Positions 1 through 2,978 of a DNA stretch of 35,292 bases are shown here, one piece after another. The stretch is from contig JAKBHH010000033.1 of NCBI GenBank assembly GCA_021836865.1, forward strand, positions 1 to 35,292. Direction: 5' to 3'. The notes beneath the pieces were generated by a model that saw nothing but the letters and a program-made list of their open reading frames with translations, made no database searches and had not been told where the DNA came from. Positions within the stretch are counted from its first letter, which is position 1. Each line of letters begins with the position of its first letter. The position numbers and the translations under genes are program-made. The DNA comes from Acidobacteriota bacterium. GTDB taxonomy: Bacteria; Acidobacteriota; Terriglobia; Terriglobales; Acidobacteriaceae.

Positions 1-402
1 TAAGATCCCGCCGGGCACGCGCAAGCGCAGCATGAAGGAGTCCTGCGCCGGCGCGACATAGAACAGGCCGTGAAACTTGAAACGAAATATATCCTCGGCA
101 GACGGGGCGCGATTTTGGTCGGCATGGACGAGTAGCTTGTCCCAGATGTCGAGCGGATTCTGATCATGCTTCCACACTTCTTCGCGGCAGAGATCAGAAA
201 CTGGAGTTCCGAAATAGGCTTCTTCCGCACTCTCAGCCTGGTTCGCAGCGCCGGATTCCGGGTCGTGCGTGATGAGACCCTCAGGCGTATGACCAACAAA
301 CGGCTGTACGTTCCGTTGAGTTGCGGATGCAAAGAAGCCCAGAAGATACTGCTTCTGCTCCGTCGTGAATTCCGCTGAAGGTGCCGTTGAAAGTACTTCC
401 AT
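1..402 (-). CDS. nirA: NirA-family ferredoxin-nitrite (or sulfite) reductase, N-terminal part, cut by the window edge
   Basis: The frame is open from ATG at 402 down to base 1, giving 134 residues that begin MEVLSTAPSAEFTTEQKQYL. The stretch FRFKFHGLFYVAPAQDSFML, followed by LRVPGG (about residues 106-132), is the start of the first ferredoxin-like half-domain of siroheme/[4Fe-4S] nitrite and sulfite reductases. In this family the enzyme reduces nitrite to ammonium (or sulfite to sulfide) in the cytoplasm during assimilation. The siroheme-ligand cysteines lie beyond the window, so nitrite cannot be separated from sulfite by sequence. Nitrite is favoured because the divergent gene encodes a HemD-GAF-ANTAR protein, a type linked to nitrate/nitrite assimilation. 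An AAAGGA ribosome-binding site lies about 6 bases upstream of the ATG. A frame opened by ATG at 407 is a shadow. Confidence 0.85.
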   Translation of the reverse strand, partial: MEVLSTAPSAEFTTEQKQYLLGFFASATQRNVQPFVGHTPEGLITHDPESGAANQAESAEEAYFGTPVSDLCREEVWKHDQNPLDIWDKLLVHADQNRAPSAEDIFRFKFHGLFYVAPAQDSFMLRLRVPGGIL

Positions 403-575
403 GCCATGTCCTTTGAAACGCTCGCAGCCGAAGCGATCCGGCAGTGAAGTTCAGTGGATATCCAACCCGCGTGCAAGCGCAGATCGATGTCGAGACCAGG
501 TTGAATGCCGCAGGTACTGCGGAGAATTCAGGCTCGTCACGGAGCATGGAACAACAGAATTGTCTTTTTGAATGG

Positions 576-631
576 ACCCGGCACGGCAGGGTGCGGGGTT
601 TGAGGATGCAAGAGAGACGGCTTTGTCTCCC
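576..631 (-). promoter_or_regulatory. Candidate ANTAR-type tandem hairpin in the nirA leader
   Basis: In the minus-strand transcript, GGGAGAC (631-625), loop AAAGCC (624-619) and GUCUCUC (618-612) form a 7-bp stem with one G-U pair and a six-base loop. The loop has A at position 1 and G at position 4, the signature of RNA targets of ANTAR proteins. After a 12-base linker a second hairpin spans 599-576: its four inner and four outer pairs flank one C-C mismatch, and it has a six-base loop CCUGCC with G at position 4 but C at position 1. ANTAR targets usually consist of two such hairpins that control an intrinsic terminator. I see no U-tract terminator between 575 and 402, so the mechanism is open. 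The divergent gene encodes an ANTAR protein. Confidence 0.5.
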
Positions 632-642
632 ATCTGTAGTGC

Positions 643-671
643 ATAGTAGTGCCTTCTCGAATAAGGATCAA
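643..671 (-). promoter_or_regulatory. Candidate sigma-70-type promoter of nirA
   Basis: Read on the minus strand, TTGATC (671-666) is followed after 17 bases by TACTAT (648-643). Each hexamer matches four of six consensus positions and the spacing is ideal. Transcription would start near 636, only about five bases before the GGGAGAC stem of the hairpin at 631-612, and would leave a leader of about 234 bases before the nirA start. The match is by eye and unverified. Confidence 0.4.
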
Positions 672-1070
672 GGGGGAATCGCATTTTTCACGTCGAGTGC
701 GCGAGGACTAAGTATTCGGCGCGCCCAAAAAGAATAGATCCGGGAGATGGAAGTACTTTTGATGGAAGATATTTGGGGATTGTCTCTTGAATTCCCCTGA
801 GACCCTGTGCTAAATCTCGATATCAGGTCGAGCAATTGCTGCACCCCGATGTGTCGCTAATTGATTGCCGATCAGCGTCGTGCTCCCCGCCTGAGCCGTT
901 CGGCGTTCCCTGAATCGTAAGCCGGCCGGATTCCCCTCTAACGATTTTCGCCATGTGGGCGGTCTTCAATTTCGAGAGGTGAGGAAACACATTGCATTAA
1001 GGTCTCTAGTGGCATTCTGGCTCAATTTGCCTGATTCGCTCATCCTTCATCTTTGCTTCAGGCTTGCGAC

Positions 1071-2978
1071 ATGAGGCATCGGTGTCTAGAATCACAGCAT
1101 CCGGTACCGCAAATCGCCAGTATTTTCCGATACGGCGTGAACACATTGGGCGAGCCTGCCGGTGCAACTACAGACAGTTTTGGCAGGCATCAGAAAGCGC
1201 GCAGACTTGGTCCCGCGCTTGGGAGAGTGCACTTGGCTCATGCGAACTTCAGAGGACTGCGCGTTCTTTCGCTCGAGTCGCGTCGTTCAATCGAGGTCGC
1301 CAAACTCATCCGCACTTATGGCGGAGAGCCCTTCCTCGTCCCCTGTATGCGAGAAATTCCGCTTGCGTCCAATACAGATGCGCTTGACTTTGCCGATGCT
1401 TTACTTCGCGGCGAATTTGACCTCGTCGTCTTTTTCACCGGCATCGGTGTTCGCGCCCTGGTCGAGGCGGTGGCCACGATGCGCGACCGCGAGGCGTTTC
1501 TCAAGGCTCTTCGTAAGGTCAAGATAGCGGCTCGCGGCCCCAAGCCGTACACCGCATTGCGTGAGCTCCAGGTGCCCGTTGCCGCAACAGCGCCTGAGCC
1601 CGCCACCTGGCGCGAACTGATGCAGGCGATCGAACAGGAGTTAGGCCCTTCGCTGGCGGAGATGCGCGTTGCCGTTCAGGAGTATGGAGCCTCGAACCCT
1701 GAATTTCTAACGGATCTGACGCTGAAATGCGGCTCCGTCACCAAGGTTCCGGTTTATCAGTGGGCCTTGCCGGAAGACCTTGCGCCTTTGGAAGAATGCG
1801 TTCATGGAATTGCTCGCGGTAACTATGATGTTTTGCTCTTCATGACGGCTGTGCAGGTGATTCATCTTTTCCAGGTTGCTGAGCGACTGCAAAGTGTGCC
1901 CGCGATGCGCGCAGGATTACTCTCTATGGCCATCATCTCTATCGGCCCTACCACGACAGAAGAGCTTGCTCATTACGGAATCACGCCGGATTTCGAGCCT
2001 TCCCGACCCAAGATGGGCTTCATCGTCAATGAAGCTGCTCAGTATGCGGGGAAGGTTCTCGAGCAGAAGCGCGGAGGAGACGCTCTGAAGGTCGCGATCC
2101 CGCCAAATGCGGAGCCGCATGCACGGCCGGCATCCTTTCCAGGCACGCCAGAGTTTCAAGACAAATCAAGTGTTCCCAGGGTTGCCGTATCTACTTCCAC
2201 GATGGCTGGCTTCCGCGATGGCCTCGCACAGATTGATTTTCTGCATGAAATCAGCAGCCGCATCGCCTCGGCAGATTCCTTCCACGTCGTTCTTAACCGC
2301 ATCGTCGAGTTTGTAACCTCGGTCATACCTTGCGACTCCTGCTTTATCTACGTGCTCGACGAGGATAAGCTCGTCCTGCGCGCATCCAAGAATCCACACG
2401 CAGACCTGGTCGATCGACTAGGCGTTCAATATGGGCAAGGCATAACGGGATGGGTTGCAGAGCATCGTGAGCCGGTAGCGATTTCGTCGAATGCCTCCAA
2501 TGATCCTCGATTCAAGCCCTTCAAAAACCTGCCCGAAGATCGTTTTGAGGCTATGCTCTGCACGCCCATTCTGTGCGCGAGCAAAGTGGTTGGTGTGATC
2601 AACCTGCAGCACCGCCTCACGTATCAACACTCGACAAACGAGGTTCGCCTGCTTTCCATGCTCGGATTTCTGGTGGGCGCAGAGATTGAACGCGCCCGGC
2701 TGGAATCGGAAAACGTCCAACTCACCGGCAGATTAGAGACGCGCAAGGCAGTCGACCGCGCAAAGGGCATCCTGCAACGCGATTTGTCGATGAGCGAGGA
2801 CGAAGCCTACCGGGCCATGCAGACAGAAAGCCGGCAGCGGCGAAAGTCCATGCGTGAGATAGCCGAGGCCGTTATCTTAGGCGAAGACCTCAGGAAGGCC
2901 CAAGCCGGAGGCATCGAAGCGAAGCACTCTAAAGCTGCTTCCGACGATGCCGATCAAGACCGAAAAAGCAAGGTCTGA
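1071..2978 (+). CDS. Uroporphyrinogen-III synthase (HemD) fused to GAF and ANTAR domains
   Basis: From the ATG at 1071 the protein has 635 residues. About residues 58-330 form a full HemD-like bilobed domain (FRGLRVLSLESRRS; VVFFTGIGVRALVEAV; LLFMTAVQVIHLFQ; SIGPTTTEELAHYGI). About 385-540 is a GAF sensor domain (IDFLHEISSRIASADSF; GQGITGWVAEHREPVAIS). About 550-605 is an ANTAR RNA-binding domain (DRAKGILQRDLSMSEDEAYR, then REIAEAVI). HemD closes the linear tetrapyrrole to uroporphyrinogen III, the precursor of the siroheme in nitrite and sulfite reductases. ANTAR domains bind paired hexaloop RNA hairpins and prevent termination. The divergent nirA with such a hairpin suggests a local circuit. 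No in-frame start (TTG 1053, ATG 1071, GTG 1137, GTG 1227) has a well-spaced ribosome-binding site. The first 55 residues look unconserved, so the true start may be as late as 1227. Confidence 0.85.
   Translation: MRHRCLESQHPVPQIASIFRYGVNTLGEPAGATTDSFGRHQKARRLGPALGRVHLAHANFRGLRVLSLESRRSIEVAKLIRTYGGEPFLVPCMREIPLASNTDALDFADALLRGEFDLVVFFTGIGVRALVEAVATMRDREAFLKALRKVKIAARGPKPYTALRELQVPVAATAPEPATWRELMQAIEQELGPSLAEMRVAVQEYGASNPEFLTDLTLKCGSVTKVPVYQWALPEDLAPLEECVHGIARGNYDVLLFMTAVQVIHLFQVAERLQSVPAMRAGLLSMAIISIGPTTTEELAHYGITPDFEPSRPKMGFIVNEAAQYAGKVLEQKRGGDALKVAIPPNAEPHARPASFPGTPEFQDKSSVPRVAVSTSTMAGFRDGLAQIDFLHEISSRIASADSFHVVLNRIVEFVTSVIPCDSCFIYVLDEDKLVLRASKNPHADLVDRLGVQYGQGITGWVAEHREPVAISSNASNDPRFKPFKNLPEDRFEAMLCTPILCASKVVGVINLQHRLTYQHSTNEVRLLSMLGFLVGAEIERARLESENVQLTGRLETRKAVDRAKGILQRDLSMSEDEAYRAMQTESRQRRKSMREIAEAVILGEDLRKAQAGGIEAKHSKAASDDADQDRKSKV

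Follow-up and report, generated by a model that had tools for sequence, protein, structure and literature searches.

In the canonical ANTAR systems, the second hairpin of the RNA target overlies an intrinsic terminator (PMC3369931). The conserved loop code of such targets is an A at position 1 and a G at position 4 (A1/G4), with more than 50% conservation in actinobacteria, and a linker of 2-25 nt has been used for the known motifs (PMC8164766). A C:G loop-closing pair is known from SELEX with NasR (PMC7496416), while a single hexaloop is the minimal target of EutV (PMC8934654). A further system to be considered is NnaR, an actinobacterial regulator with a HemD domain, which is needed for the expression of nirBD and narK (PMC6277429).

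Here we describe the leader of nirA in a member of the Acidobacteriaceae. Its hairpins look like an on/off switch for nitrogen use in a soil bacterium. The window (the whole stretch of DNA that was analysed, 35,292 nt) contains the following features, with hairpins numbered hp1 to hp3 from the promoter onwards.

1..402, minus strand: nirA, ferredoxin-type nitrite/sulfite reductase; N-terminal 134 aa only, as the contig begins at base 1
492..535, minus strand: alternative pairing GAGCC...GGUCUC around a CCGCAG/CUGCGG hairpin (522-508); it uses the 3' arm of hp3 and excludes hp3
532..545, minus strand: hp3, GCUC-CGUGAC-GAGC; hexaloop 541-536 with C1/G4, closing pair C:G
576..599, minus strand: hp2, core GCAC-CCUGCC-GUGC (594-581); loop 590-585 with C1/G4, closing pair C:G, outer stem ACCC/GGGU
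612..631, minus strand: hp1, GGGAGAC-AAAGCC-GUCUCUC, 7 bp; hexaloop 624-619 with A1/G4, closing pair C:G
643..671, minus strand: putative sigma70-type nirA promoter, TTGATC (671-666), 17 nt, TACTAT (648-643)
1053..2978, plus strand: divergent HemD-GAF-ANTAR gene; Pfam HEM4 3.6e-33, GAF 4.6e-15, ANTAR 1.3e-17

The promoter pair TTGATC-17-TACTAT described in the sequence-only reading of this region is indeed present on the minus strand, and we infer from it a start of nirA transcription near 636. Of the 68 orthologous regions, 65 have a promoter-like pair of the permissive pattern TTG/16-19 nt/TAnnnT ahead of the leader hairpins, the exceptions being L263-L265. The NirA fragment from the window shares 55-72% identity with the N-terminal parts of NirA from the 24 loci chosen for comparison, and its longer homologue from locus L002 has NIR_SIR domains. 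The divergent gene had been said to encode an ANTAR protein, which is borne out by a match to profile PF03861 (E 1.3e-17, 63.8 bits versus a cut-off of 27.3), the sole ANTAR match in the window's assembly (G000, 96% complete). The listed start is a TTG at 1053, and homology to most relatives begins around residue 60. As a separate HemD gene on contig 60 scores higher than the fused domain (196 versus 118 bits), we consider the fused HemD more likely to be a sensor than a biosynthetic enzyme; the same argument has been made for the HemD domain of NnaR (PMC6277429).

Several other features of this neighbourhood were noted. An outer-membrane-type gene separates nirA from the HemD-GAF-ANTAR gene in L002, L005 (Alginate_exp) and L012 (Phenol_MetA_deg); no Alginate_exp or Phenol_MetA_deg gene is listed between the two genes in the window. 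A DNA palindrome, GACAC-N6-GTGTC, with GACACRTCAAGGTGTC as its commonest form, is found about 320-470 nt upstream of the nirA start and is perhaps a transcription-factor site; the window has a degenerate copy at 841-857. With spacers of 4-7 nt (GACAC-N4-7-GTGTC), it was detected in 19 of the 68 regions (L201-L268) where 0.5 are expected, L212 and L214 matching only at hp2. The sequence GCTC-N7-GAGC, located at 882-896 in the window, was detected in 12 of 70 regions versus 1.35 expected, at 449-514 nt before the nirA start. Its loop is often TACGCCT when read toward the divergent gene, and it could be part of the divergent transcript.

Both hairpins of the sequence-only reading were found where it had placed them, namely the 7-bp stem with an AAAGCC loop carrying A1 and G4 at 631-612, and a second hexaloop hairpin (CCUGCC, G4) at 594-581 within the ACCC/GGGU stem 599-576. 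The minimum-free-energy structure of 636-402 includes both, and on re-inspection no U-tract terminator was seen in the window's leader, again as reported. The proposed extent, 576-671, holds the promoter, hp1 and hp2, but the element runs to 532 and its most conserved hairpin, hp3, had been missed. There are thus three tandem hairpins with six-base loops in this leader, all closed by a C:G pair. Three C:G-closed G4 hexaloops were encountered in only one of 2000 resampled leaders, the shuffles used throughout being first-order Markov resamplings and not exact dinucleotide shuffles. An A1/G4 hexaloop on a stem of at least 7 bp, as in hp1, occurs in 1% of 2000 resampled leaders; if only the first 40 nt are considered, the figure is 0.1%. 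Throughout the window, however, 10 such hexaloops are seen versus 5.75 expected, so that hp1 alone is weak evidence. Total folding energy is by itself unremarkable, as 11 of 200 shuffles fold as well as the leader 636-402 (z -1.68). The linker from hp1 to the hp2 core (17 nt) fits the 2-25 nt of known ANTAR motifs, whereas the 35 nt between the cores of hp2 and hp3 exceed it.

Conservation was analysed in 68 nirA upstream regions (L201-L268), which were chosen among 398 genomes of the family by a NirA search (E <= 1e-150) and not by motif. For L209, tblastn gave no start position, and this was set manually with its hp3 as the reference. The pattern GCTC-N6-GAGC is present in 59 of these regions, while 0.65 are expected. 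When loops of 3-9 bases with free letters were allowed, we found 59 six-base loops, three three-base loops and no others, and all three short versions occur in leaders that also hold the six-base one. Among the 59 hp3 loops, position 1 is always C and position 4 always G, position 5 is A in 52, and positions 2, 3 and 6 vary. If degenerate outer pairs are counted, hp3 is present in 62 of the 68 leaders, the remaining six being L223, L232, L233, L236, L237 and L246. In 22 regions the 140-nt leader stretch is identical to that of a discovery locus. The other 46 are distinct, though they include close relatives of the discovery loci and of one another, and 45 of these 46 held-out leaders carry the hp3 pattern, with C1 and G4 in 45 of 45. 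As its stem is almost invariant, hp3 provides no covariation.

The loop code extends beyond hp3. In 70 leaders (the 68 selected by NirA, the window and L001), all C:G-closed hexaloops on stems of at least 4 bp were counted from the promoter up to and including hp3. Those with G4 number 1.64 per leader versus 0.09 in resampled sequence, while A4, C4 and T4 do not exceed expectation. If hp3 is left out, G4 still reaches 0.77 per leader versus 0.07. Outside hp3, position 1 is C in 0.49, T in 0.23, A in 0.11 and G in 0.06 hexaloops per leader (expected 0.10, 0.08, 0.07 and 0.07). The C:G closing pair is part of the hp3 search pattern, and hp1 of some relatives is closed otherwise. The A1 base, taken as the signature in the sequence-only reading, is thus a minority form and C is favoured; neither hp2 nor hp3 of the window has the A1 that is canonical in both loops. 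When 43 orthologous loci and the window were scanned for two A1/G4 hexaloops in tandem, the matches were no more than sporadic and the actual element was missed.

Compensatory changes are found in hp2. An initial search had returned 79 loci, of which 43 (L001-L043) match along the HemD-GAF-ANTAR protein and the rest over HemD only. A NirA N-terminus lies beside this gene in 26 of the 43; 24 were used (L038 and L039, with partial matches, were omitted), resulting in 25 leaders with the window. The promoter-like pair and hp2 are common to them, and 19 have hp3 in the form GCUC-CNNGAN-GAGC, with degenerate outer pairs in three. In the other six, of the Acidicapsa type, nirA is located downstream of the ANTAR gene, hp3 is missing, and hp1 has the form GAGAC-UNNGNN-GUCUC. 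For 15 of the 19 leaders with hp3, which were not chosen by pairing (alignment A2; L009, L010, L012 and L026 were held out), the only pairs predicted by RNAalifold are those of the hp2 core and the three inner ones of hp3. In this alignment, 93.3% of cells pair, and neither the pairing nor the covariation score was attained in any of 500 shuffles. When the 3' partners were slid by +2 columns as a control, covariation was 0.190 and exceeded the true value of 0.182, but pairing was only 49% versus 93%. The hp2 signal is stronger in alignment A3, which has 34 selected leaders of the 70. Here the two arms of hp2 vary in step (GCAC/GUGC, GAGAC/GUCUC, GUAC/GUAC, GACAC/GUGUC), four of five pairs show changes on both sides, none of 500 shuffles reach the score, and no slid-partner control reaches the true covariation value (0.222 versus 0.366). 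The automatic choice of the best hairpin was frequently other than hp2. In A3, 27 rows were taken by the pattern C-six letters-G with at least 3 bp and seven were placed by hand (window, L001, L216, L217, L219, L225, L247); leaders were omitted if the pick was not hp2, if there was no pick, or if the row was a near-repeat (L213). The percentage paired in A3 leans upward because rows were selected by pairing pattern, and its closing C:G pair, found in 34 of 34, was part of the search pattern for 27 of them.

The least conserved hairpin is hp1. A stem of at least 5 bp occurs in the first 60 nt of 63 of 70 leaders, but 68% are expected by chance, and hp1 was therefore rejected as a conserved hairpin. 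A G4 hexaloop is found at this position in some lineages only. Its first base is A in the window, L001 (with a bulge), L207, L239, L240 and L243, U in L210, L219, L225, L247 and the six Acidicapsa-type leaders, and C in L203-L205.

The proposal of an ANTAR target is supported in part. Conserved tandem C:G-closed hexaloops, the invariant G4 and the adjoining ANTAR gene speak for it, the A1 code does not. Orthologues without A1 in the 631-612 loop had been named as a result that would count against it, and this is partly the case since only some leaders have A1 in hp1. Nevertheless, the ANTAR reading survives, as the signal is carried by hp2 and hp3. A scan with the Rfam covariance models was negative, with no match at the gathering threshold over the window and none at E <= 10 in 300-1300.

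The ANTAR domain can be compared with the EutV-RNA structure, in which G4 is stacked against Tyr164 and kept in place by Arg142, Lys149 and Glu160, while A1 makes no contact and may only block a cross-loop pair (PMC8934654). EutV residues were mapped via the PDB alignment, the chain index being the number in that paper plus 2. Each of the four G4-contact residues (R142, K149, E160, Y164) is kept in 78 of 78 HemD-GAF-ANTAR proteins. Met172 of EutV acts as a loop plug, and the exchange M172A abolishes RNA binding (PMC8934654); this position is Arg in 78 of 78. Binding is also lost in the EutV triple mutant N173A/R175A/R177A (PMC8934654). The corresponding residues here are Q (76) or T (2) at N173, R (77) or H (1) at R175, and S (70), T (4), A (3) or N (1) at R177, with Q (70) or H (8) at R168. 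It was considered whether the Met172 exchange is unique to HemD-GAF-ANTAR proteins, but 16 of 16 other ANTAR proteins sampled from the family (L271-L286) also lack Met and have Arg (12) or Gln (4), so that the change marks a broader subfamily. For these proteins, a non-A1 loop code would be predicted. Arg172 and C1 are correlated, which does not prove that they are linked. In 57 of 59 hp3 loops, C1 occurs without a G at position 5; this would avoid a C-G pair between positions 1 and 5, in line with the cross-loop suggestion made in PMC8934654, the choice of positions 1 and 5 being our own reading.

The leader and the protein also occur together. HemD-GAF-ANTAR proteins are encoded in 84 of the 398 genomes at E <= 1e-120, while any ANTAR domain is found in 174. 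Of the 68 NirA genomes, 66 are among these 84; in the two exceptions the gene is in pieces on two contigs (G021) or an ANTAR match lies in a 580-aa frame beside nirA (G216). Our covariance model R1 matches 37 of the 398 genomes at E <= 0.01, and 36 of the 37 have HemD-GAF-ANTAR; the other, G284, has the weakest match (E 0.0086). In the window's own genome, R1 has one strong match, the nirA leader (1.2e-10), and one at chance level (0.7). Sensitivity of the model is limited: it finds 36 of the 84 HemD-GAF-ANTAR genomes, detects Acidicapsa-type leaders through hp2 only and, on held-out leaders, missed L012 at E <= 1 and matched L026 in part (E 0.06). Because nirA and the regulator are mostly neighbours, the co-occurrence is not independent of synteny and partly reflects common inheritance of a single cluster. 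NirA genomes lacking an ANTAR gene, which would serve as negative control, were sought, but there are none among the 68 NirA genomes of the 398. A sample of 329 genomes from the class has 31 NirA genomes, all from the same family and already in the set of 68. Some genomes of the family have two HemD-GAF-ANTAR copies, and at L011, L016-L018, L021-L023 and L042 the gene was found without a NirA N-terminus in the fetched stretch and without an R1 match at E <= 1.

The conserved hairpins, their C1/G4 code, the co-occurrence with the protein and its G4-binding residues, all of them sequence observations, together indicate that the nirA leader is very probably the RNA target of the adjoining HemD-GAF-ANTAR protein. 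The leader would most likely be a signal-gated, antitermination-like ANTAR switch. The ANTAR domain would bind the C:G-closed C1/G4 hexaloops of hp2 and hp3, in the window species also the A1/G4 loop of hp1, while the HemD-like and GAF domains would sense a signal, probably nitrate/nitrite supply or a tetrapyrrole of the siroheme pathway. In its active state, the protein would stabilise the hexaloop form of hp3 (and of hp2) and thereby prevent the 3' arm of hp3 from pairing with RNA further downstream in the leader, so that RNA polymerase could read through into nirA. Binding by this protein, signal and output are inferred, and read-through as the output has about an even chance in our view. 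The whole explanation, with the nirA leader as a cis-acting target through which the HemD-GAF-ANTAR protein gates read-through, is given a probability of roughly two in three, slightly lowered since three more of the EutV contact positions differ.

In an 80-nt stretch of the window, the alternative pairing is favoured (-24.1 kcal/mol, versus -20.3 with hp3 enforced). Over 62 leaders, the mean probability of hp3 is 0.27 and that of its 3' arm pairing downstream is 0.53. Compared with resampled sequence, downstream complementarity of this arm has a mean z of -0.64; it stands out only in L228 and some of L250-L267. These data fit a protein-stabilised switch without identifying its output, and exclusive pairing is not general across the relatives. 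A conserved intrinsic terminator was not found, with terminator-like hairpins in 10 of 68 leaders versus 6.0 expected in a simple scan that can miss weak terminators; at position hp4, only L206, L209, L210, L212 and L216 passed.

That intrinsic terminators are not clearly enriched brings Rho into consideration. The G-poor hp2-hp3 linker, possibly with the C-rich RNA after hp3, could be a Rho loading site which is blocked when the ANTAR protein sits on the flanking hairpins; the target RNA would be the same and only the output machinery would differ. This linker is long, and in 62 leaders the G content is 13.8% for the 24 nt preceding hp3 and 24.7% for the 100 nt that follow, but base composition is weak evidence, such a bias being possible in any unstructured linker, and Rho sites are not recognisable from sequence alone. 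We regard control by Rho as rather unlikely. Still less probable is translational control, where the start codon of nirA would be exposed or hidden by the opening or closing of hp3. A segment of the window that overlaps the 5' arm of hp3, UUCCAUGC (551-544), can pair without mismatch with GCAUGGAA (404-397) at the start codon, and the duplex has -13.6 kcal/mol, with -14.4 in L001. Strong as it is in these two, the pairing is not general: start regions swapped in from other genomes were equal in 42% of trials on average (64 leaders, with partly imprecise start positions), and start-codon sequestration was rejected as a general mechanism. Simple occlusion of the ribosome-binding site is argued against by the distance of 130-230 nt between the hexaloop hairpins of the window and the start codon further downstream, which sets them apart from targets overlapping this site.

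Two further interpretations are each given very little weight. In several Granulicella-type leaders, ATGCTCC..GA.GAGCC.TGA is a frame of six codons, and hp3 might itself encode a short upstream peptide (MLRDEP-stop), control being exerted by translation of this frame. However, an ATG directly precedes hp3 in only 15 of 68 leaders, which led us to reject this view, and outside the arms it is loop positions 1 and 4 that never vary, just as in ANTAR hexaloops. The near-invariant arms of hp3 would also suit a dyad DNA site for a transcription factor. This was already disfavoured by the location of the hairpins downstream of the promoter-like pair in 65 of 68 regions, and the arms of hp2 change together while C1 and G4 of its loop stay, which is the reverse of what a dyad DNA site would show.

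Under the preferred explanation, binding of the nirA leader by the HemD-GAF-ANTAR protein, the locus is a candidate for the control of nitrate assimilation in Acidobacteria, and its HemD-like domain would have a second, RNA-binding use beside that in NnaR. The published searches considered here presuppose loops with A1/G4 and in some cases a terminator as well, and a search of this kind would overlook the nirA regulon. The role of loop position 1 is left open by the EutV structure as described in PMC8934654, and a clade-wide set which differs in both this base and the Met172 plug allows a direct test of it. As a tentative and rather doubtful generalisation, the Acidobacteriaceae may have a second ANTAR code. 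A subfamily with Met172 replaced by Arg would read C1/G4 on up to three hairpins, the HemD-like domain would sense a siroheme-pathway tetrapyrrole, and nitrite reductase would be made only when its cofactor can be, all without an intrinsic terminator.

No description of a HemD-GAF-ANTAR/nirA leader system was found in the literature searched, and an acidobacterial match may be present in the supplementary tables of PMC3369931. With the eutP, nasF and amiE leaders (PMC3369931, PMC7496416, PMC8934654), the nirA leader shares tandem C:G-closed hexaloops, the invariant G4 and the position before a nitrogen gene; as in those dual-hexaloop systems, the ANTAR gene adjoins and the G4-contact residues are kept. 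It differs from them at loop position 1, which is mostly C in hp2 and hp3 and U, A or C in hp1 instead of A, and in having up to three hexaloops, with 35 nt between hp2 and hp3 in the window. It also has no conserved intrinsic terminator, and Arg replaces the Met172 plug. The divergent targets and a recognisable terminator in few of them are features common with the actinobacterial ANTAR RNAs, but those prefer A1 (more than 50%), and overlap with the RBS or the start codon is seen in about 37% (PMC8164766), while the hairpins described here are well upstream of the start codon. NasR-nasF of K. oxytoca is likewise an ANTAR protein on a nitrate/nitrite assimilation leader, as predicted here, though NasR senses through a NIT domain rather than HemD-GAF and the loop code is different (PMC7496416). 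NnaR from Streptomyces and Mycobacterium also combines a HemD-like domain with the regulation of nitrite reductase (predicted in our case) and a separate HemD paralogue, but its output domain binds DNA, where the protein described here has an RNA-binding ANTAR domain and an added GAF domain (PMC6277429). Since hp2 and hp3 lack the canonical A1 and a conserved intrinsic terminator was not found, we consider that the nirA leader works like an ANTAR target without being a plain member of the class, and that it represents a new variant.
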